A program made the translations under genes and the position numbers. Below, one piece after another: positions 641-24,101 of a stretch of 26,844 nucleotides of DNA; position 1 is the first letter of the stretch; each line of letters starts with the position of its first letter. The stretch covers positions 1 to 26,844 of the IMG/VR virus record IMGVR_UViG_3300044707_000467. One strand, given 5' to 3'. The stretch comes from a virus. The notes under the pieces were generated by a model. That model made no database searches, was not told the origin of the DNA, and saw nothing but the letters and a program-made list of their open reading frames with translations.

Positions 641-1189
641 TTACCAGTTAGGCTCACTCTTCCAAAACTCTCCATCTTGTGCCGGAGCTGGTGTTTCAAC
701 TAACTTGGGCGGCTCAATCAAAGCCTTTGGAGTCGGTAGCCACTTCTTAATGGTGTTCTTATCCTTTTGGATAACTTGTCCTTGTTGAGTGGTATACGGC
801 TTATCCTTCTCAACATCTACTTCGATATCTAACGGTTTATTGAGTAATGCCGTAAAGTCATTGTTTTTAAATATCATCACGGATTCAATTTGCCTCTTAT
901 CGGTTAAATTTGCAGCAATCGACCTACACAAAGCCGAAAGCTCCTCCATCGCTCGATTCTTAACTGCTGGTTTTTCATGCCCAATGTTAAAAAAGTCTGT
1001 TAGAGTATGACCATAATAATCTCCTAGAATGACCCCATAAGTTACGCGCAAGTGAAAACCTGCACTGCTTTTATTTTGGTATATATCAGCCGATTGAACC
1101 TGTACGGTATATCTACCTTTTGGGAGTACCTCGTTACTGCCGGACGTTCTCCCTAGTGCTGCTGTAATGTTAGTTAAATTAAATTCCAT
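641..1189 (-). CDS. DUF669-family protein, phage ssDNA-binding-like
   Basis: The 182-residue product resembles the DUF669 family of phage proteins, which commonly accompany AAA/RecA-like recombination ATPases and are thought to act in single-strand DNA binding during recombination. Visible traits are the N-terminal segment LPKGRYTVQVQSADIYQNKS, the beta-rich stretch GFHLRVTYGVILGDYYGHTL, and a low-complexity proline/acidic tail ending in FWKSEPNW, like the acidic tails of ssDNA-binding proteins. It lies 20 bp downstream of the Sak4-like ATPase on the same strand, a typical pairing. The start has an AAAGGGAT Shine-Dalgarno. A terminator follows the stop codon. The family call rests on motif memory and context. 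Confidence 0.7.
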   Translation of the reverse strand: MEFNLTNITAALGRTSGSNEVLPKGRYTVQVQSADIYQNKSSAGFHLRVTYGVILGDYYGHTLTDFFNIGHEKPAVKNRAMEELSALCRSIAANLTDKRQIESVMIFKNNDFTALLNKPLDIEVDVEKDKPYTTQQGQVIQKDKNTIKKWLPTPKALIEPPKLVETPAPAQDGEFWKSEPNW

Positions 1190-1209: not shown

Positions 1210-1989
1210 TTAATTTTCTACTATTTTTTGAGTGTTTGAATTTGCTTTAATTAATGTTACCAATTCTCCCCAAAACTTAGACGGCTCACCTTCAGCAATT
1301 TTTAATTCATGCGGTAACTTATAACGATTTTTAGCGGCATAAGCTGGACGTTCTCCGGTATAGATTATCCGTTGACCATCTCCGAAAGCCTTAGTCTTAA
1401 TCGTACCGAAAGACCCCTCAGTCCTCATAACGCTCACATCATAGGTTAAAAAGAAAAGGCAATCACACCATTCAGAAAGGATAGCCGAAGCTCTTTTATT
1501 TAAATCTAATTGGAACCTCTCGTAACTATCTTGTCCCGGTAATTCAACTTTCCTCACTTGACTATGAGCAAGCAAAAAAACTACCATATTTTTAGCGCGT
1601 CTTAATGTATCTAACTTAAATACAATTTTTTCCCACTCAACCGCAGCCGCGTCATAGCCTCGACCATAAGGCACTGCGCTGATATCAGGCACGTTTAATT
1701 GCTCAGCAACATGCCGATGAACTAAGCGCTCAAGCCAATCAAGCGAATCGATAACAACTGTACCGTGTGTGTGTTCATTGTTTAATAAAAAATCTAGTAC
1801 ACCGATGAAATCGCTATACTTTGAAATTAAATCAGTAGCCGGAACGCTTAGATCCACTAGCCCATCCTCTAACTGTATAAATACAGGTAATGGAGTCTTA
1901 GACGCTAAAGTGGTTTTCCCAGCTCCTTGGATACCGTATAAAATAATTCTTGGCGGTAGTAATTTTCTATTTGCATTAAATGGTGACAT
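1210..1989 (-). CDS. Sak4-like / AAA_24 RecA-fold ATPase (phage recombinase)
   Basis: This P-loop ATPase probably acts as a Sak4-type single-strand annealing/recombination protein with the DUF669 partner downstream. Residues 19-27 (GIQGAGKTT) form Walker A. Residues 77-81 (TVVID) form Walker B, and VVFLLAHSQVRKVELPG resembles the strand and sensor region of this family. I placed the start at complement 1987-1989 (MSPFN) because GGAGGAG lies 4 nt upstream. A longer in-frame extension of 13 codons to 2028 would run through the palindromic promoter/operator and lacks a ribosome-binding site. The product is 259 residues. Expression probably starts from the divergent control region at 1990-2049. 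Confidence 0.8.
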   Translation of the reverse strand: MSPFNANRKLLPPRIILYGIQGAGKTTLASKTPLPVFIQLEDGLVDLSVPATDLISKYSDFIGVLDFLLNNEHTHGTVVIDSLDWLERLVHRHVAEQLNVPDISAVPYGRGYDAAAVEWEKIVFKLDTLRRAKNMVVFLLAHSQVRKVELPGQDSYERFQLDLNKRASAILSEWCDCLFFLTYDVSVMRTEGSFGTIKTKAFGDGQRIIYTGERPAYAAKNRYKLPHELKIAEGEPSKFWGELVTLIKANSNTQKIVEN

Positions 1990-2001
1990 GTTCTCCTCCG
2001 A

Positions 2002-2027
2002 TGTTGTATAAAATATAATATACAACA
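2002..2027. promoter_or_regulatory. Perfect palindrome in divergent promoter region (putative operator)
   Basis: TGTTGTATA at 2002-2010 and TATACAACA at 2019-2027 are perfect 9-bp inverted repeats around an 8-nt AT core. The element fills the 60-bp gap between the divergent Sak4-like and primase-helicase genes. It overlaps -10-like sequences on both strands: TATAAT at 2014-2019 on plus and TATATT on minus, the latter 17 nt from a weak TTGCAC. A dimeric repressor bound here could silence both transcripts. A related sequence occurs at 4338-4355. Confidence 0.65.
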
Positions 2028-2049
2028 AGTAAGAGGAGAGTGCAAGGGT

Positions 2050-4143
2050 ATGTTAACAGCTCAAGAGTTTTTAGAAAGGTTTAGAAGTTTGCATTGTTTT
2101 CAGATATTTGGAGACAATGCCGAAGCGAAAAAGACTATATTCCCTCGATGGTTTTTTAATACCTTTAATGAAGCAGAGAAGCAACTAAGAGAATTAAATA
2201 ATCGAGGCGGCGGTATTTTTTTTGTAGTAAATGAAACCGATGGACAAGGCAGAACAGAGAAGAACATTACAAAGATTACGAGCTGTTTTGTTGATTTAGA
2301 CGGCGCACCTTTAGACGCTGTTTTAAATTGCGAGATAATGCCTTCTATTGTGGTTGAGACTAGGCCAGGCCGTTATCATTGCTATTGGTTCGTGAAAGAC
2401 GTTAGCTTACAAGACTTTCCAGTTATTCAGTTAGCTTTAGCTCAGAAGTTTAACGGAGATAAGACCGTCAAGGATGTATGTAGGGTAATGAGAGTCCCTA
2501 CCTTTTACAATCAAAAAGATAATTCCTTTTTAGTTAGAGCGAAGAGCTTAAATAAAGATGTAATATCAGGCGACCAGTTAATTACTAAGCTAGAATTAAA
2601 CATTCACGCAAGTATTTCTGAGTATACAAAAACAACTGTAAAACTCTCTGAAACTCATTTAGTAGGAGAGGGAGAGCGTCATGAAACTTTGATGAAACTT
2701 GCTCGTAAATGGGCAGCAAAAGGGCTTGAAGAAAGCGAAATACTGGATATCTTAACTATAGCTAATAATAGATTTACGCCGCCATTACCGGCATCACGGT
2801 TTGAAGAAGAAGCACGTCGCATTATATCCACTGTCAAAAATTATGAAGGCGGTACCCTTGGCACTGTTCAGATTGTAAGCGATGAACCAGACGAGGAAGA
2901 GGAAGAGCACAAGATAGAGCTACCAGCTACGGCAATTACAGACGATATAGTAGCAAAGGCTCCTAACTTAGTAGGCGAGCTAGTCAAAGCAATAACAGAT
3001 AGTGCTATATTCCCGATTCCTATTTTAGCTTTACAAAGTGCTTTGGTGATTGTGTCAATGCTGAAGCGCAAAAACTATGTAGGATATTTTAACGGATTTT
3101 GTAACCTGTACACCATCGGCACCGGCTCTGCTGCGGGCGGTAAAGGTCATAACCTAAGCTGTGTCGATAGCATCCTAGCTGCGTGTGGTGCTGATGGGTA
3201 TACAGTTGGGAAGCTTGTGTCCAGTCCTTCAGTTAGTACCGCATTAAATAGGACAGGAGGATGCTCCTTGAGCATGATTGATGAAGCCGGTATTTATTTA
3301 AAGCCTTTATTAATAAATAGATATTCAGACAAAAACGCATTAGGGCTTAGGGAAACCCTAATGGTAATGTTTAATGCTAACAGGAAGGTGAGGGGGGCTG
3401 AATACAGCTCAAGACAAGGCGCAACCGAACGTTTAGACGTGCAGAGTCCATTTTTAAGTGTCTATGGTGTTACAACTCCTGAGACTTTTTATAGCAACAT
3501 TAGCGCAGAACACGCAGCCGATGGGTTTTTAAGTCGATGGCTTATATTTGAAAGCATTGAACCTGAACAGCGAAAAAGAAATTGGAGCGCAGGCAATAAA
3601 GAAATAGACATAAAGCTACTTGAAGAGCTGCAAAGAATCTCCAACATTCTTACCGCTAGGCCGATGAAACTTAAATTTACATCAGGAGGAGAGGATTTAT
3701 ATAGAGATATTATAAATTACTATGATAAAATAACCCAAGAAAAGAAAGATACTAACGAAGTAAGTATAAGAGGACGACAAGGTGAACACTTTGATAAATT
3801 GTGTACTATTTTATCTAATATTGATAATGAAACCAACATTGAGGCGATAGAGTATGCCAATAAATTAGTAATCGGATGCTCAGATACTTTATGTACTCAT
3901 CTAACGGATGAGAATTTACATAAAAGCTCGATAGGGGAAAAGACTGAGCAATTTATTAAGTTTTTAAAGTTAGGCGGTCGAAATGGACGCACAAAAACTG
4001 AAATATCAAAGCGAATGTATCACATACCAGCGAAAGAGCGCGAAGAGATTATGAATACTTTATTGGAAGGTAAAAGAGTCAAGGTATGGCAAAGGCCGAC
4101 ACGCACTGGACGGCTTGAAACAAGACTTAGATTTGTAAACTAA
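2050..4143 (+). CDS. Primase-helicase fusion (RepB-like primase + PriCT + DUF3987-like ATPase)
   Basis: This 697-residue replication protein would make primers and unwind DNA. The N-terminal third resembles archaeo-eukaryotic-type RepB primases: catalytic-looking DLD at 82-84, histidine at 110 in GRYHCYWFV, and RVMRVPTFYNQKD near 145-157. Residues about 206-266 match a primase C-terminal (PriCT_1-like) helical domain, with NNRFTPPLP. An acidic linker (278-288) leads to a DUF3987-type ATPase. It has the glycine-rich P-loop GTGSAAGGKGHN (357-368) and Walker B LSMIDEAG (D411, E412). The P-loop lysine is followed by glycine instead of the usual Ser/Thr. The C-terminal 60 residues look like a winged helix. 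Weak AAGGG plus a more distant GAGGAG precede the ATG. It is transcribed alone and ends at a terminator at 4164..4220. Confidence 0.8.
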   Translation: MLTAQEFLERFRSLHCFQIFGDNAEAKKTIFPRWFFNTFNEAEKQLRELNNRGGGIFFVVNETDGQGRTEKNITKITSCFVDLDGAPLDAVLNCEIMPSIVVETRPGRYHCYWFVKDVSLQDFPVIQLALAQKFNGDKTVKDVCRVMRVPTFYNQKDNSFLVRAKSLNKDVISGDQLITKLELNIHASISEYTKTTVKLSETHLVGEGERHETLMKLARKWAAKGLEESEILDILTIANNRFTPPLPASRFEEEARRIISTVKNYEGGTLGTVQIVSDEPDEEEEEHKIELPATAITDDIVAKAPNLVGELVKAITDSAIFPIPILALQSALVIVSMLKRKNYVGYFNGFCNLYTIGTGSAAGGKGHNLSCVDSILAACGADGYTVGKLVSSPSVSTALNRTGGCSLSMIDEAGIYLKPLLINRYSDKNALGLRETLMVMFNANRKVRGAEYSSRQGATERLDVQSPFLSVYGVTTPETFYSNISAEHAADGFLSRWLIFESIEPEQRKRNWSAGNKEIDIKLLEELQRISNILTARPMKLKFTSGGEDLYRDIINYYDKITQEKKDTNEVSIRGRQGEHFDKLCTILSNIDNETNIEAIEYANKLVIGCSDTLCTHLTDENLHKSSIGEKTEQFIKFLKLGGRNGRTKTEISKRMYHIPAKEREEIMNTLLEGKRVKVWQRPTRTGRLETRLRFVN

Positions 4144-4145
4144 CT

Positions 4146-4316
4146 TTATTCTGTATAAGATATAACGCTCCTAGGTCGTCTACCTGTATATATGTAGACG
4201 ATAGTAGCGTTTATTTTTTCTAAGTATGCAAAGCGTGATTCTTTGCTAGTCCGTGGGTTAGCTCGCGCATATTGAGTCAAGCTCCAACCATTTTTTAAAT
4301 TTAGTTTTTTGTCCAT
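4146..4316 (-). CDS. Small protein of unknown function (56 aa)
   Basis: The ORF starts at complement 4314-4316, preceded by GGGG about 6 nt upstream, and encodes a basic 56-residue product (MDKKLNLKNGWSLTQYARAN...). The W-S-L-T-Q-Y-A-R segment could be the first helices of a small DNA-binding fold, but this is only suggestive. It converges tail-to-tail with the primase-helicase gene with a 2-bp gap, and its last third contains the plus-strand terminator hairpin. It is separated from the other leftward small genes by a terminator, so it would need its own promoter. An AT-rich palindrome-like element at 4321..4359 lies directly upstream. Coding status is uncertain. Confidence 0.45.
   Translation of the reverse strand: MDKKLNLKNGWSLTQYARANPRTSKESRFAYLEKINATIVYIYTGRRPRSVISYTE
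4164..4220 (+). terminator. Intrinsic terminator of the primase-helicase gene
   Basis: A two-part stem is formed by AACGCT (4164-4169) with AGCGTT (4206-4211), and inside it CGTCTAC (4176-4182) with GTAGACG (4194-4200). It is followed by a T-rich tail, TATTTTTTC. It lies about 20 bp after the primase-helicase stop and inside the 3' half of the opposing small ORF. Confidence 0.8.
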
Positions 4317-5059: not shown

Positions 5060-6073
5060 TTATAACTCTGTAAGTAAAGGCATCTGAAAAGTTTGCATTC
5101 GTTTTTCTATAACTTTAAACCAATGAGGATCTAATTCGATCCCAATAGGAAACCTCTTTAATTTTTCGGCTGCAACTAAGGTCGAGCCACTTCCAGCAAA
5201 ACAATCAAGCACTATAGCACCGGGACGAGTCGAGGCACTAATAATGTTCTCAAGCATCGCTGCAGGTTTTTCACAAGGATGCCTTCTATAACAAATATGC
5301 ACTGCAGGAAACGTCCAAACATCCGTGAAAGGTACTTTTGCCGACACCGAAAAAGGACGGCGTAGGTCTTCATACTCGCGGCGTAAATCGTCATATTCAC
5401 GGCGTAGGTCGTCATATTCACGGCGTAGGTAGTCCCCACCGTTGGCATTAAATAATTGGCGTAAAGTTGCGTAATGTTTAGCTGTTGGCAAAATCCACTG
5501 TTTTTGAGCAAACCAGTGGGACGCCATTTGCGTATTAGTACACTCATCCACTTGTTGCAGCGTAATGTTTGCTTTTTGCCTTTCCCCGTCTAAATATGCT
5601 CGCAAAGGCTCAAAAATAAATCCTCGTAGCTCATCACATTTAGCTGCGTAGCCAGCTTCTCCCTTAGTAATGTTATCTGCTCCGTAATGTTCACAAAAAA
5701 TAATCCGCTCAGATTCTGGAAAATAATGCCGCATAGTTTCTTTGCAGTTTAATCTGCTCCAACTATAACCGTTTTTATTCCAAACGATATGATTTAATAC
5801 ATTAAATCTTTCTCCCAGCATCACCTCTACCCGTGCCGCCATTTTAGAGGAGGCGAAGCAATACAGCGAGCCATTAGGCTTTAAAATACGCTGCCATTGC
5901 TCCGCCACTTGGTCGAGCCATGCTAGAAATTGAGCCGGTTTATCCCACTGCCGATCCCAATAATCAGCCTTTACTTTAAAATAGGGTGGATCGGTTATAA
6001 TAGCGTCAACTGAATTGGCTTCCATCGAAGCCATAACCTCGAGGCAATCCCCGTGATGTAGTGTGTATGTCAT
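5060..6073 (-). CDS. DNA (adenine-N6 or cytosine-N4) methyltransferase, beta-class, with internal heptad tract
   Basis: This 337-residue S-adenosylmethionine-dependent DNA methyltransferase has catalytic motif IV DPPY (residues 28-31) near the N-terminus. The SAM-binding FAGSG follows near the C-terminus in VLDCFAGSGSTLVAAEKLKR, an order typical of the beta class. DPPY favours adenine-N6. The middle third, the presumed target-recognition region, contains seven-residue repeats LRREYDD encoded by 21-bp DNA repeats (5358..5435). The first 31 residues are almost identical to those of the methyltransferase encoded immediately upstream. No restriction endonuclease gene was recognised nearby, so it probably acts as an orphan enzyme protecting or marking phage DNA (inference). 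No clear Shine-Dalgarno precedes the ATG; the short gap from the upstream stop suggests coupled translation. Confidence 0.85.
   Translation of the reverse strand: MTYTLHHGDCLEVMASMEANSVDAIITDPPYFKVKADYWDRQWDKPAQFLAWLDQVAEQWQRILKPNGSLYCFASSKMAARVEVMLGERFNVLNHIVWNKNGYSWSRLNCKETMRHYFPESERIIFCEHYGADNITKGEAGYAAKCDELRGFIFEPLRAYLDGERQKANITLQQVDECTNTQMASHWFAQKQWILPTAKHYATLRQLFNANGGDYLRREYDDLRREYDDLRREYEDLRRPFSVSAKVPFTDVWTFPAVHICYRRHPCEKPAAMLENIISASTRPGAIVLDCFAGSGSTLVAAEKLKRFPIGIELDPHWFKVIEKRMQTFQMPLLTEL
5358..5435 (-). repeat. 3.7 tandem 21-bp repeats inside the methyltransferase
   Basis: Units start at 5358, 5379, 5400 and 5421 (last one partial). The 5400 unit reads CGGCGTAGGTCGTCATATTCA without its last base, with one to a few differences in the others. 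Each unit encodes one charged heptad, L-R-R-E-Y-[DE]-D, so gain or loss of units keeps the frame and changes the length of a probable alpha-helical spacer. Confidence 0.85.
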
Positions 6074-6099
6074 GTTTAGCTTTAAGTTGATGTATTAAA

Positions 6100-7104
6100 T
6101 TAAAATAGTTTTTGCGGTGCGTAGGTAGCATGTTTTATTCGAGCTTCTGCAATGCGTAAGTATTCCTCTTCTAATTCTATCCCAACAAATTTAAAGCCTT
6201 CTAGGATTGCAGCCTTGCCGGTGCTGCCACTCCCCATAAAAGGGTCAAGCACGACTCCGCTTAATGGTGTTACTAATCGGCACAAGTAGCGCATAAGATT
6301 AATTGGTTTAACTGTGGGATGAATGTTTTTATTTCTAGGGATTGGACGGCCTCGAGAGTCTTTCCCTTTTAATGTTCTTTTAGCTTGTTTTTCTTCAAAT
6401 TCATCAAGCCCTTCGTCGCGGTCACGCTGAGTAGCCTTAGAGCAATAAAAGAACCGGGCGGCGGAGCCGGTGTCGGCATACCCAGAGACCACCCCAGGTA
6501 AGCCACTGGCGCCGCCGTGGTAGCCCATGGTTCCGTTTGGGTCGCGTACACCACAAGTACTTGAGGCCGCCTGCGGAAACAACCCCATAACCTCATCGCT
6601 TCCATCATGGGTAAAATTAGCTGGCCAGCGGCCGAAAGTAAGAGCTCCTACCCGGCATCCATCTATATTGATTGCGCCAGTGCCATACTTCAGCACATTG
6701 GCGGCTACAGTGCCCTTTAAGGGCTTGCGGGCCATGATCACGGGCTCCCATGCCGGTTTAAGCGCAGTGCCCCAGCCTTGCCATTGGCCTTTAAGATTAT
6801 GCGACTTAGGGAAACCACTTGAGTAGACCCACATCACACAATCGCGAATCTCCCAGCCAGCATCCTCAATAGCACATGTTAACCGGTGAAATGTGCGAGT
6901 ACCGCCGAAGGCCAACAAGTGCGCTCCCGGTTTAGCGACTCGCAAAGCTTCTTGCCAAAAAGCCTTGCCCGGTACGCCACAATCCCAATTCTTACCCATA
7001 AAAGATAAACCATAAGGCGGATCAGTCACGATAGCATCAATCGAGTTGGCTTCCATTAAAACCATAACCTCGAGGCAATTTCCGTGATGTAGTGTGTATG
7101 TCAT
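6100..7104 (-). CDS. DNA methyltransferase, beta-class (second copy)
   Basis: This 334-residue enzyme has motif IV DPPYG (residues 28-32), followed by GLSFMGKNWDCGVP, a pattern common in phage N6/N4 methyltransferases. HPTVKPINLMRYL and the SAM-binding DPFMGSGSTGKAA lie near the C-terminus. The region between about 100 and 240 (WVYSSGFPKSHNL, INIDGCRVG) differs fully from the neighbouring enzyme, so the target sequence is likely different. The two genes share the leader MTYTLHHG[DN]CLEVM and near-identical 5' DNA. AAGG precedes the ATG. It is part of the leftward operon starting at 7467. Methyl target cannot be read from sequence. Confidence 0.85.
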   Translation of the reverse strand: MTYTLHHGNCLEVMVLMEANSIDAIVTDPPYGLSFMGKNWDCGVPGKAFWQEALRVAKPGAHLLAFGGTRTFHRLTCAIEDAGWEIRDCVMWVYSSGFPKSHNLKGQWQGWGTALKPAWEPVIMARKPLKGTVAANVLKYGTGAINIDGCRVGALTFGRWPANFTHDGSDEVMGLFPQAASSTCGVRDPNGTMGYHGGASGLPGVVSGYADTGSAARFFYCSKATQRDRDEGLDEFEEKQAKRTLKGKDSRGRPIPRNKNIHPTVKPINLMRYLCRLVTPLSGVVLDPFMGSGSTGKAAILEGFKFVGIELEEEYLRIAEARIKHATYAPQKLF

Positions 7105-7467: not shown

Positions 7468-7494
7468 AATATCCTCCGTCGATTATGTTTATAT

Positions 7495-7515
7495 GATGCA
7501 TTTATAAAATGTATC
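7495..7515. promoter_or_regulatory. Imperfect palindrome upstream of the leftward operon (putative operator)
   Basis: GATGCATTT-ATA-AAATGTATC has 8 of 9 arm positions matched. It lies 28 bp before the ATG of the 7467 gene, next to a minus-strand TTGACC (complement of 7516-7521) that could be a -35 element. A good -10 at correct spacing was not found, so the promoter is unproven. Confidence 0.4.
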
Positions 7516-7576
7516 GGTCAATAAAAATAAAAAAAATGATATTTTTTTAAAATATAATACTGTTTTAGAAAAAGCT

Positions 7577-7877
7577 GATGTAAATTACATGCCCTCATGC
7601 CCGGGGCGTCAAATGGGTGGTTTCAGGGGTGGTGAGAAAGCTGTGGAAAAGATAGATAAGTATATAATATATATAGATAATATTTTTTATTTCATTTTCA
7701 CTTCTCTCACACCCTTTTTTTTTCCGACACGCGGTTTTTTCTCTCGCTTCGTGATGTATTTATGCTTTTTTTTTACGGGTGTGACGGGTGTGAGGTTTGC
7801 TTAATAAAATCACACTAGTTAGATGCTTTTAATGTTCCTAAAATGACCACGGGCATCACGGGCATGTAATTTGCATC
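7577..7877. repeat. Long interrupted inverted repeat (27/28-bp arms)
   Basis: The left arm at 7577-7603 starts GATGTAAATTACATGCCC and continues TCATGCCCG. The right arm at 7850-7877, read on the other strand, starts GATGCAAATTACATGCCC and continues GTGATGCCCG. Apart from one substitution and a small change after base 18 they match. The arms are 246 bp apart. A second nested pair, CTCACACCC (7706-7714) and GGGTGTGAG (7786-7794), lies inside. Confidence 0.8.
7775..7866 (+). repeat. Two tandem 9-mer pairs, ACGGGTGTG x2 and ACGGGCAT[CG] x2
   Basis: ACGGGTGTG occurs directly repeated at 7775-7783 and 7784-7792. ACGGGCATC/ACGGGCATG occurs at 7849-7857 and 7858-7866. Both pairs share the ACGGG core, 9-bp period and orientation, like iterons bound by a replication initiator or repressor (inference). 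Confidence 0.7.
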
Positions 7878-7945
7878 AAATAATATCAAGGGGTTACGGT
7901 CAAAATCAGGCACTTACGAGCGCCAAAACGGCATTTTATTTTATT

Positions 7946-8070
7946 AGGTAAAACATAATGTTATCTAGTGAGACAGAAACGGTGGTTGGGTTCTGACAGG
8001 TAAAACATTGGTTGTAAAACGTCGGTCTAGTTCTACCAGATAAAACAATAGTTGACAAACGGCGTTTGAT
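7946..8070 (+). repeat. Degenerate direct repeats around [AG]G[GA]TAAAACA
   Basis: AGGTAAAACAT starts at 7946 and 7998, and AGATAAAACAA at 8038, giving spacings of 52 and 40 bp, close to whole helical turns. The last two lie in longer similar blocks, 7991-8030 and 8031-8070, each starting TTCT and containing GTTG..AAACG. The similarity is about two thirds, so these are degenerate binding-site arrays at best. Confidence 0.5.
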
Positions 8071-8080
8071 TTATATTAGT

Positions 8081-8096
8081 TAGAATGACCATTCTA
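8081..8096. promoter_or_regulatory. Perfect palindrome TAGAATG-AC-CATTCTA
   Basis: Seven-bp perfect arms flank a 2-bp centre. Its size and spacing fit a dimeric repressor operator. TTGACT, a -35-like hexamer, follows at about 8104, but no good -10 was found at 16-18 bp. Confidence 0.5.
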
Positions 8097-8232
8097 CTAG
8101 GGGTTGACTATCTTTTTTAGATGTAATAGGCGCAGCACTTTTTATTCCTTTAAAATTCCACTAATCGTTTAAATATAGCGAATCCCTATTTTACCTATTG
8201 ACAAACAAAAAAAAGTGATAGCGATTCTTACC

Positions 8233-8256
8233 TACTGAGAACTGTAATTCTCAGTA
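8233..8256. repeat. Perfect 9-bp inverted repeat TACTGAGAA...TTCTCAGTA
   Basis: The arms at 8233-8241 and 8248-8256 enclose CTGTAA. The right flank is an A run. Because neither strand has a T run on the exit side it is not a terminator in either direction; an operator or a structured RNA is possible. Confidence 0.6.
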
Positions 8257-8345
8257 ACTAAAAAAAAGTAAATTGAAATAGAAATTGCAAAAACAAATTG
8301 AAACTTACTGGCATATTTTGTAGGGTGCCCTATCCTCAAAAAGTG

Positions 8346-8380
8346 TTAGTATAAAAGTATACTAATGTTTCTCAAACATT
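8346..8380. repeat. Two adjoining perfect palindromes
   Basis: TTAGTATA-AAAG-TATACTAA (8346-8365) is followed, sharing two bases, by AATGTTT-CTC-AAACATT (8364-8380). Two stacked dyads within 35 bp, about 170 bp before the rightward promoter, look like adjacent protein-binding sites or mutually exclusive hairpins. Confidence 0.65.
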
Positions 8381-8442
8381 GTTTTAAAACTAGATGCGCC
8401 TAGGGCGTAGGTGTGCTTGGTGCTGGCCAAAATTCCCAGCGG

Positions 8443-8504
8443 AAAAACTCGAGGGGGGGTATGGGGTCTTTGCTTTTTGGTAAAGTCCTTGTCTACCCTC
8501 CCCG
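8443..8504 (-). terminator. Large GC-rich hairpin, probable leftward terminator
   Basis: GGGGGGGTA (8453-8461) pairs with TACCCTCCCC (8494-8503) with one G-U. A nested stem of GGTCTTTGC with GGTAAAGTCC adds length. On the minus strand it is followed by CTCGAG and then five T residues (A run 8443-8447). It would stop antisense transcription entering the control region from the right. On the plus strand there is no T run. Confidence 0.55.
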
Positions 8505-8547
8505 AAAGATTTTAGCCCTCACTTTCGCCTCAAGCTCCGCGCTTACC

Positions 8548-8576
8548 TTGACGAACTTTATATATACATATATAAT
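8548..8576 (+). promoter_or_regulatory. Sigma70-type promoter of the rightward gene block
   Basis: TTGACG at 8548-8553 and TATAAT at 8571-8576 are separated by exactly 17 bp. This is the best promoter match I found in the window. Transcription would start near 8583, giving a leader of about 20 nt containing GGAGGAGG before the ATG at 8603. No obvious operator overlaps it. Confidence 0.8.
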
Positions 8577-8602
8577 CATCAAACGATGAAGGAGGAGGCG
8601 CT

Positions 8603-8842
8603 ATGGATATATTTTCTATGTTTACCGGCTCAACGGCTGGCATTGCTGCTTTGGTTGTATTGTTTGCTATGGTGGTGAAGAATCTAGGTGGTGCATGGGA
8701 GCGTGGCGTAATTATAGTCTCGCTATTTATTGGGGGGATATATTTAGCTAGGACGCTTAACGTGCAGCATCAACAAAGAATAAAATACGCTCAGATGAAA
8801 TCTGAAGAGCGCAAAAGTATATGGGGGGGTATTTTCAAATGA
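8603..8842 (+). CDS. Small membrane protein, two membrane segments (79 aa)
   Basis: This is the first gene after the promoter, with a very strong Shine-Dalgarno (GGAGGAGG). Residues about 8-25 (GSTAGIAALVVLFAMVVK) and 34-50 (RGVIIVSLFIGGIYLAR) are hydrophobic, predicting two membrane passes. A charged cytoplasmic-looking tail (QHQQRIKYAQMKSEERKS) follows. Size and topology resemble class II holins, but position far from the endolysin argues for caution. It could instead be a membrane partner of the anchored nuclease encoded two genes on. It overlaps the next gene by 4 nt (ATGA). Confidence 0.7.
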   Translation: MDIFSMFTGSTAGIAALVVLFAMVVKNLGGAWERGVIIVSLFIGGIYLARTLNVQHQQRIKYAQMKSEERKSIWGGIFK

Positions 8843-9745: not shown

Positions 9746-11215
9746 ATGAGCGGAGAGAGGGGTTCAAGAGCTGGGAAGTTTATTGGCAAGAGGGATAGAG
9801 AGAGGGGTATATTTCAATTCCTAAGTTTAAAAAGCTGGTATAAACCTACTAAGTCAATACAGAGAGAGCGCAGAGAGGAGACGAAAATTCCTATCAAACG
9901 GTTAGATAAAAATATAGAAGCATGTTTGATTAGTCATGGGATACAAGGTAAGGTGATAAATTGCCATGAGGGCTCATCCGTTTGGACTTATGAACTACAG
10001 CTCAGCGCAGGTCAGAGAATAAAGAGCTTAATGGGGCTAGATGCTGAGCTGGCTATTTCATTAAAGACTTCGAGCGTGAGGGTTATCCCTTTATTAAACA
10101 GGGGCACTGTTGGAATAGAGATTCCTAAGACAAAGCGCAACCCTGTTTTATTCTCTGACGTTATTTCTAGTGTAGCCTTTGAAAGAAAGAAGGCAGGTAG
10201 AGATGCTTCTCTTTCTATAGCTTTAGGGAAAGATACACTTGGAAACGATGTTATAGTTGATTTGGCTACCCTACCCCATTTATTAATTGCGGGGGCTACT
10301 GGAACAGGTAAGTCTGTTTGCTTAAACGTCATTTTATTATCCTTCTTGAAAAGATACTCCCCGAAAGAGTTAGGGCTTATTTTAATTGACCCTAAGATAT
10401 TAGAATTTTGTTTATATGATAAATTGCCTCACCTTATGCATCCGGTGGTGATAGATGCTAATGTGGCTAAGAATGTTCTAAGCTGGTGTGTTCAGGAGAT
10501 GGAGTATAGGTACTCCCTTATGAAAGATAGTGGGGCAAGGAACATCCAAGAATATAATAGTTTAAATAAAAACGACATTCTAAAAAGGATTGTTGTAGTA
10601 GTTGATGAGCTAGCAGATTTGGTGCTATGCGGTGAGAAGTCTATAGTCGAGTCTATAACACGGCTAGCACAAAAGGCGCGTGCTGCTGGTATCCATTTAA
10701 TTCTTGCTACTCAACGACCTTCCGTTGATGTTGTCACAGGGCTTATAAAAGCGAACTTCCCTGCAAGGATAGCTTTTAGGGTAGCCTCTTCCATTGACTC
10801 AAGAGTTATTCTTGATAGCAAAGGAGCAGAAAAGCTCCTAGGTAAAGGAGATGCGTTGATGGTGCTTCCGGGAGGAGAAGGCCAGCAGAGGGTGCAGGTA
10901 TCGTATATTTCAGATAGTGAAGTTAAAAGTATATGTCAACAGATAACAGCTTCTTTAGCTCCCCAATACGAAGAGTCCCTTATAAGCTATGTAGAAACCA
11001 AGCCAGAGACTATCACGGGAAAGAATGGCGAGGAGTACGGGAAAGTCATAGAGTACGCTCAAGGACAAGAAGAAATAAGCGCATCAGAAATACAAGCGCA
11101 ATTCTCTATAGGCGTGGCAAAGGCCACGAAATATTTAAAACAGTTGATAGCGGACGGGATAGTTAGCGAGGAACTTGTTTCTAAGGGAAAGAGAAAAGTT
11201 ATCTGGAATAATTAA
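9746..11215 (+). CDS. FtsK/SpoIIIE-type DNA translocase
   Basis: This 489-residue motor carries the canonical FtsK core. An alpha-like domain spans about 45-135. The RecA-like domain has Walker A GATGTGKS (183-190), LILIDPK, LPHLMHPVV, Walker B VVVVDELADL (D287, E288), the LATQRPSVDVVTGLIKANFP stretch, and a GDALM segment. The C-terminal about 65 residues form the winged-helix gamma domain (ISASEIQAQFSIGVAKATKY) that in cellular FtsK reads oriented DNA sites. The N-terminal membrane domain is missing, replaced by about 45 basic residues. Shine-Dalgarno AGGAGG precedes the ATG. Cellular FtsK pumps double-stranded DNA in chromosome segregation. In a phage it could act in genome segregation, dimer resolution or DNA entry (inference). 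Confidence 0.9.
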   Translation: MSGERGSRAGKFIGKRDRERGIFQFLSLKSWYKPTKSIQRERREETKIPIKRLDKNIEACLISHGIQGKVINCHEGSSVWTYELQLSAGQRIKSLMGLDAELAISLKTSSVRVIPLLNRGTVGIEIPKTKRNPVLFSDVISSVAFERKKAGRDASLSIALGKDTLGNDVIVDLATLPHLLIAGATGTGKSVCLNVILLSFLKRYSPKELGLILIDPKILEFCLYDKLPHLMHPVVIDANVAKNVLSWCVQEMEYRYSLMKDSGARNIQEYNSLNKNDILKRIVVVVDELADLVLCGEKSIVESITRLAQKARAAGIHLILATQRPSVDVVTGLIKANFPARIAFRVASSIDSRVILDSKGAEKLLGKGDALMVLPGGEGQQRVQVSYISDSEVKSICQQITASLAPQYEESLISYVETKPETITGKNGEEYGKVIEYAQGQEEISASEIQAQFSIGVAKATKYLKQLIADGIVSEELVSKGKRKVIWNN

Positions 11216-22738: not shown

Positions 22739-24101
22739 CGACCCCAAGACTATTATTGAATACACTATTCAAGCGGCAGATTTTTACGGAGTGCCGCGAG
22801 CGGATGCGCTTAGAATCGCTGCTGCTGAGAGTAGCATGGGAGCCAATACGGCGAATTATAAAAATAAAGATTATGTAGGAGCTTTCCAATTAGGCGAAGC
22901 TGCTGCGAAAGATGTAGGAGTTACTAACAGAAACGACGTTAAACAAAATGTATTTGGTGGAGTTGCGTACTATAAGCAGATGCTAGATGCAAACCAAGGG
23001 GATAGAAACCTTGCTTTAGCTTCTTATAATGCTGGGCTAGGAAGAGTTAAACAAGCTGGGGGTGATATATCAAAGCTTCCAGTGGAAACTCAAAACTACG
23101 TTAGAAATACACCTAACATAGACTTAACACAATATGGGGTTACGCCTAGCCAGATTGGTTCGCCTATTCCTTCAGCGAAGAAAGCTAGTGTTAGCGCATT
23201 TGGGCAACCTTTACAAAGAAAGCAGGTTAGTAATGTTCAACAACCTAATATTAGAGATTTAGCCGAAGCACAAGCGAAAGAGCGACTCCAAGAAGTTGCG
23301 AAAAATAAAATTAGTAGCCAATTATCAAACAAGCCAACGGCGGCTTCTCCTAGCATGTTCTCTGTATCAAATATCGGTAGCTCTGGTAATGTGATACTTC
23401 CAGCAGCGGGTGCTTATGGTATGTATGATTTATTTGGTAATGACAGACGAGGGGGGCGAGCTGTTATCCAAGGTACTGCAAGTGGCGCAGCGTTAGGATC
23501 ATATTTCGGACCCATGGGGGCGGCTGTAGGTGCTGGGGTTGGTACGTTATTAGGTGGTGGTGCTGCTTTGATGAATAAACCGCCTAAGACTAAGAAAGAA
23601 GAGCAACGCTGGCAAAGATTAGCAAAACAAGGTTTAGATATTCCTGATTGGGTACAAGATGGGGTCAACATTAAGGCGAAAGATGCTGGATATAGAGCAG
23701 ATTTACCTTCTGATTTTATTGGGGTGGCTCCTACTGCTGGTAAAAGCTCTGGTGGTATAGCTGATCAAGCTGGCTCGTGGGTCAACAATGCATTTGCAAA
23801 AACTAGGGATGAAAAATACCTTACCGGTAAAGATATTTGGGGTTATGCTGTATGGGCAGAGAAATTGGGCAACTCATGGATGGCTGGAACTTCTGAACAA
23901 CGCGAAGCTATAGCAGACGAGGCTTTAAAGCGAGGTTTAGTAGATGAAGCTAAGGGAACTATTAACATCAAGAATGACCCTGAATTCTGGAAGTTTGCAG
24001 AAAGCACAATAAAAAACATACCGTTAAGTAATTCGGTTAGAACAGCTATAACAGGTTTAGAATCAGGAAGGATGAAGCCTGTTACGCGACCGATTGCTTA
24101 A
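22725..24101 (+). CDS. Virion-associated lytic transglycosylase
   Basis: The N-terminal ~130 residues match the SLT goose-lysozyme-like domain. The catalytic-looking glutamate is in AAAESSMG (E35), followed by VGAFQLGEAAAKDVGV and LASYNAGLGRVKQ. A low-complexity linker (150-230) follows. A glycine-zipper membrane-active segment lies at about 250-280 (GTASGAALGSYFGPMGAAVG), and the C-terminal domain is soluble and has KNDPEFWKFAES. Such proteins make a local peptidoglycan hole for genome ejection. At 458 residues it is shorter than the T7 gp16 type. Confidence 0.8.
   Translation: MAIDSDPKTIIEYTIQAADFYGVPRADALRIAAAESSMGANTANYKNKDYVGAFQLGEAAAKDVGVTNRNDVKQNVFGGVAYYKQMLDANQGDRNLALASYNAGLGRVKQAGGDISKLPVETQNYVRNTPNIDLTQYGVTPSQIGSPIPSAKKASVSAFGQPLQRKQVSNVQQPNIRDLAEAQAKERLQEVAKNKISSQLSNKPTAASPSMFSVSNIGSSGNVILPAAGAYGMYDLFGNDRRGGRAVIQGTASGAALGSYFGPMGAAVGAGVGTLLGGGAALMNKPPKTKKEEQRWQRLAKQGLDIPDWVQDGVNIKAKDAGYRADLPSDFIGVAPTAGKSSGGIADQAGSWVNNAFAKTRDEKYLTGKDIWGYAVWAEKLGNSWMAGTSEQREAIADEALKRGLVDEAKGTINIKNDPEFWKFAESTIKNIPLSNSVRTAITGLESGRMKPVTRPIA

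Follow-up and report, generated by a model that had tools for sequence, protein, structure and literature searches.

RSF1010 carries one primase site (ssi) on each strand. In satellite phage P4, the alpha protein is a single primase-helicase whose C-terminal winged helix binds short repeats, and the proposal for plasmid pRN1 and phage BIP-1 places the origin in a stem-loop that has no iterons and immediately follows the gene on its 3' side (PMC4234260). For the primase-helicases of the PrimPol-PV1 supergroup, Kazlauskas et al. proposed that the winged helix recognises the origin (PMC5862659). Proteins of this type occur widely among mobile elements, and their recognition of origins through the winged helix is so far only a proposal. 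Here we describe a repeat element at positions 7576-7878 of a virus record of 26,844 bases, classed as a linear fragment (the window, meaning the whole stretch that was analysed). A phage replication origin is in our view the best explanation for this element, with a probability of roughly 0.6, and replication from it would probably be of the theta type.

Family matches to terminase, portal and FtsK proteins point to a tailed bacteriophage. A near-identical, permuted copy of the window, IMGVR_UViG_3300035663_000043 (37,796 bases), starts at window position 10764, passes the window end, continues for 13.2 kb and stops at window position 8515, and both records were combined into a map of ~40.0 kb. 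From ~36.0 kb round to 7.5 kb the genes are mostly leftward (SSB, Sak4, YqaJ nuclease, DEAD helicase and two methyltransferases), and the rightward structural genes extend from 8.6 to 36.1 kb. The replication module includes a match to the single-strand DNA-binding protein family (SSB, 641-1189, minus strand) and a Sak4-like single-strand annealing protein (1210-2028, minus strand), and the primase gene is the exception within this block, being rightward. No DNA polymerase family was matched among the proteins searched, except the primase/polymerase families matched by the primase, so the phage presumably relies on the replicase of its host. Searches with the primase, a 79-aa ORF, FtsK and terminase returned near-identical copies, the only close relatives, and among these searches terminase alone gave distant matches (about 24-43% identity). 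The DNA of the intergenic region had no match in 50,697 phage records, nor did an Rfam search give one. Elsewhere in the window, genes at 1-600 contain 21-bp tandem repeats and their products ISGDVS-type repeats, with several related copies in the neighbouring record. Two adjoining DNA methyltransferase genes, both phrog_67, occupy 5060-7104, one of them with a 21-bp tandem repeat (5357-5434), and a FtsK/SpoIIIE-like protein with alpha, motor and gamma domains is encoded at 9746-11215.

The primase gene (2050-4143, plus strand) encodes a 697-aa protein, our proposed initiator, with a RepB_primase domain (PF16793, E 6.6e-11, above the cut-off), PriCT_1 (E 1.3e-8), a DUF3987 match that falls under the curated cut-off and a predicted C-terminal winged helix. 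In its structure model, most of residues 1-260 are predicted with confidence and the helicase part is poor, and the C-terminal ~70 residues (626-697) are modelled as a winged helix with fair quality (pLDDT about 80). The best PDB matches by Foldseek were RSF1010 RepB' (3h20, E 4e-9), the PrimPol of cyanophage S-2L (6zp9) and RepB' with initiator DNA (3h25), and many winged-helix proteins matched a stretch of 66-80 residues with high probability and a weak E-value. This bears out the first-pass annotation, according to which the genome has its own primase-helicase: a RepB'-type primase and a DUF3987-like helicase are fused in one protein. A strong hairpin (4164-4211) followed by TTTATTTTTT, probably a terminator, lies just downstream of the gene, and none of 200 shuffles folds as well as the 257-nt 3' flank (z -3.7). 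No array was found in this flank in the window.

The repeat element belongs to a non-coding region of 1.1 kb (7468-8602, from the ORF list) between divergent gene blocks. Its ends are inverted arms at 7576-7606 (minus strand) and 7847-7878 (plus strand), 240 bp apart, with 28 of 32 aligned columns identical and one gap; the arms recognised in the first pass are real, and the values given for them, 27/28 and 246 bp, are corrected here. The left arm contains minus-strand boxes at 7587-7594 (one mismatch) and 7595-7602, and the right arm two exact tandem 9-mers CACGGGCAT (7848-7865). Between the arms, two exact tandem 9-mers ACGGGTGTG at 7775-7793 (plus strand) include the boxes GGGTGTGA at 7777 and 7786, and an inverted copy of this box, TCACACCC, is nested on the minus strand at 7707-7714. 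Both tandem pairs, including the one in the right arm, and the nested copy had been noticed earlier, as had AT-rich tracts beside the repeats. A core with 10% G+C over 50 bp (7647-7696) sits between the box groups and is a candidate unwinding element. The box family GGGYRTSA explains most of the repeat pattern, with 7 exact matches in the window, 6 of them within 7595-7858 and on both strands, a count that is descriptive because the consensus comes from this same site. Since boxes of the same family occur in both orientations, the earlier argument from a one-sided iteron-like pattern fails; the ACGG tally itself was accurate, with the motif present at all eight positions and no CCGT, its opposite orientation, in 7577-8100.

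An inverted pair this good appeared in 1 of 120 shuffles of the whole window (dinucleotide shuffling in 500-bp blocks) and, under a stricter score, was matched in 2 of 300 shuffles of the intergenic region only. Three exact 9-bp tandem registers were obtained in 0.2% of shuffles and eight ACGG in 0.6% (P 0.006); four of the eight come from the 9-mer pairs and three from degenerate repeats at 7926-8100. When 300-bp intervals of the ~40-kb map are ranked by direct and inverted 8-mers together, 7576-7875 comes first, and the element is the only inverted pair in the window with a score of at least 20 and a gap of 60-600 bp. As in iteron-type origins, tandem short repeats are therefore present in non-coding DNA above chance and adjoin an AT-rich region that could be unwound.

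The degenerate direct repeats (7926-8100, plus strand) have units starting at 7926, 7977, 8017 and 8057, spaced mostly 40 bp apart. None of 200 shuffles equalled them, and they rank second among the non-coding repeat sites of the ~40-kb map; tested for folded structure, they gave a z of about 0. At the edge of the AT-rich core, TTTTCCACA (7642-7650, minus strand) matches a DnaA-box pattern exactly, which is weak evidence. An exact match to the IHF consensus (7884-7896, plus strand) is found 5 bp past the right arm, and the 3 matches in the window against 2.3 expected are not significant. The motif GGGGGTATGGGG (8455-8466, plus strand) is considered a lead only; among the fused primases of relatives, 9 of 31 (two of the 31 being one contig) have GGGGGTA close to their 3' end against 2.1 expected, a moderate enrichment. 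The cumulative GC skew, proposed earlier as a check, has its minimum on the site, at 7477 (7602 after detrending), and its maximum at 36101 of the ~40-kb map. However, the skew goes positive across the rightward primase gene within the leftward block and thus follows gene direction, since this plus-strand gene reverses the local skew of a minus-strand module. We rejected it as independent evidence for an origin, as it adds little and does not discriminate.

Comparable arrays were found beside the primase genes of relatives. The contig L143, which has SSB, Sak4, DEAD helicase and primase in common with this phage, contains exactly one comparable inverted pair (9967-10007/10186-10226), which lies at the primase 3' end and is composed of tandem TTGACGAAAG boxes around an AT-rich core. 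Other arrays 3' of the primase have the repeats GGGAAACC (L182), TTTGTCAC (L193), AGTTCTCT (L196, a prophage of Nitrosomonas sp. Nm84), CATTGGCGC (L201), GGGAACA (L218), TGTCTGCA (L187) and TTGTCGA (L129). Several of them look alike, as tandem 8-10-mers inverted around a core, and the layout in L182, L193, L196 and L218 resembles that of L143 and of this phage. The helicase part differs among the fused-primase relatives (DUF3987, RepA-like AAA_25 or DUF5906). The box sequence of this phage differs from that of every relative, so that homology of the site itself is not demonstrated.

A genome scan provided 40 prophage-type relatives, and the locus test covered 28 loci whose fused primase has 580 residues or more. 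The score, the minimum of the direct and inverted 8-mer counts, replaced a coverage-based repeat score that was too noisy, and it was picked after the first examples (L143, L129, L182 and L187) had been spotted by eye. The primase 3' end was the top repeat site in 10 of the 28 fused loci against 1.34 expected (binomial P 3.7e-7, for loci that are related and therefore not fully independent), and in the other 18 the array was not the top site. Two of the ten (L143 and L182) come from the eye-spotted examples and the other 8 from the later genome scan; L211 and L226, also within the ten, have low scores and are less convincing when inspected. All controls were at chance: the primase 5' end (1/28), 1.5 kb downstream (1/21), 3.5 kb upstream (0/27) and split-primase loci (1/45). 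Such arrays are associated statistically with fused RepB'-type primase genes. In cyanophage S-2L (L230), the stretch 23025-23350, 3' of the PrimPol gene, is repeat-rich, with inverted GGCACAG-type repeats and GGGGGGGTAG; it is the top non-coding site by repeat score, and one site inside the PrimPol gene scores higher. Inverted stretches of ~120 bp, 70% alike and 330-350 bp apart, were seen upstream of the split primase gene in L089 (8268-8840), L093 (4288-4866) and L100 (9024-9590).

The position of the element between divergent gene blocks would also suit an operator region, with the arms and boxes binding a phage regulator of leftward and rightward promoters; inverted operators are common at divergent promoters. 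Promoter-like sites exist both ways, a weak leftward one at 7521-7493, ~55 bp from the left arm, and a good rightward one (11/12) at 8548-8576, ahead of the gene at 8603. The latter is, however, ~670 bp from the right arm, and none of the ORFs searched was recognised as a regulator gene. An AT-rich core with tandem 9-mers in inverted arms suits origins better, and in relatives the comparable arrays flank the primase gene on its 3' side and not on its 5' side, so we regard an operator, the main rival reading, as unlikely. The origin could instead be in the same 1.1-kb region and be centred on the 40-bp repeats or on GGGGGTATGGGG, the inverted arms being auxiliary. The strongly non-random nature of these repeats and the recurrence of GGGGGTA near fused primase 3' ends would agree with this, but the repeat units are degenerate and do not resemble the 8-10-mers seen in relatives, and GGGGGTA is short and its enrichment only moderate, which makes such an arrangement quite improbable.

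An origin in the stem-loop at 4164-4211, which would leave some other role to 7576-7878, seems very improbable. The proposal for pRN1 and BIP-1 does put the origin downstream of the replication gene (PMC4234260), and here this flank has a long hairpin and a folding z of -3.7. On the other hand, the hairpin followed by TTTATTTTTT reads as an ordinary terminator, a resemblance that makes a pRN1-like origin less likely; it has ~50 nt against ~100 in pRN1, and iterons are absent from it. That the arrays are packaging (cos/pac) sites and not origins is hardly credible. In L193 and L196 they lie just upstream of HNH or small-terminase-like genes, but the genes downstream of the arrays vary between relatives (L187, L182 and L218), and the near-identical records do not share a contig end at the element. 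The terminase genes of this phage start at 13908, 6 kb from the element, so a packaging site is unlikely there.

If the element at 7576-7878 is the replication origin, the C-terminal winged helix of the primase-helicase would bind the 8-9-bp boxes in both arms and the tandem pair, and the bound protein would open the AT-rich core. The helicase part may then load, with the RepB'-type primase making primers that the host replicase would extend. Recognition by the primase-helicase, for which the first-pass annotation had used the failed one-sided argument, is still the best-supported reading, given the protein family, the predicted winged helix and the arrays of relatives. The weak point of the origin reading is the distance, since 3.4 kb separate the element from the primase gene, while in relatives the array directly adjoins that gene. 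We tentatively suggest that phages and prophages with fused RepB'/PrimPol-PV1 primase-helicase-winged-helix proteins may share an origin class, in which inverted tandem arrays of 8-10-mers surround a core, the box sequence varies per phage, the array usually abuts the primase 3' end, and recognition falls to the winged helix as the matching domain. Such a class is not described in the literature searched. The arrays beside the gene in many relatives are concrete short DNA targets, therefore recognition specificity and origin function are directly testable, including in the already studied cyanophage S-2L, whose PrimPol gene is followed by a similar stretch rich in repeats.

Compared with described systems, the protein resembles members of the PrimPol-PV1 supergroup of mobile elements (PrimQH, all3500), which combine a primase, PriCT, varied helicases (DUF3987, RepA) and a winged helix. 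The paper on that supergroup describes no iterons (PMC5862659), unlike the element of this phage. We found no description of DUF3987 together with iterons in the literature searched, and other literature may contain one. ORF904 of pRN1 and phage BIP-1 also have an archaeo-eukaryotic-type primase, a helicase and a winged helix in one protein, and the stem-loop proposed as the origin there, of ~100 nt in pRN1, compares with the ~50-nt terminator-like hairpin seen here. With P4 origin/alpha, this phage has in common a single primase-helicase that carries a winged helix at its C terminus (predicted here), but the alpha primase is bacterial-type (Toprim), while the domain found here is RepB_primase, of archaeo-eukaryotic type, and the P4 box sequence and layout are unlike those of this phage. 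The arms were considered as ssi-like hairpins, as in RSF1010, and rejected, since they have no hairpin in common and their single-strand folding is no better than that of shuffles; an ssi hairpin for each strand was thus not found. A separate iteron-binding protein of the RepC type was not recognised among the proteins searched, a set that took in part of the small ORFs. The likeness to RSF1010 oriV consists of a RepB'-family primase with PriCT-1 and a matching fold, together with iterons and an AT-rich stretch. RSF1010 divides the work among three proteins (RepB', RepA and RepC), with RepC binding the iterons, whereas in this phage primase and helicase are fused in one protein with a predicted winged helix.
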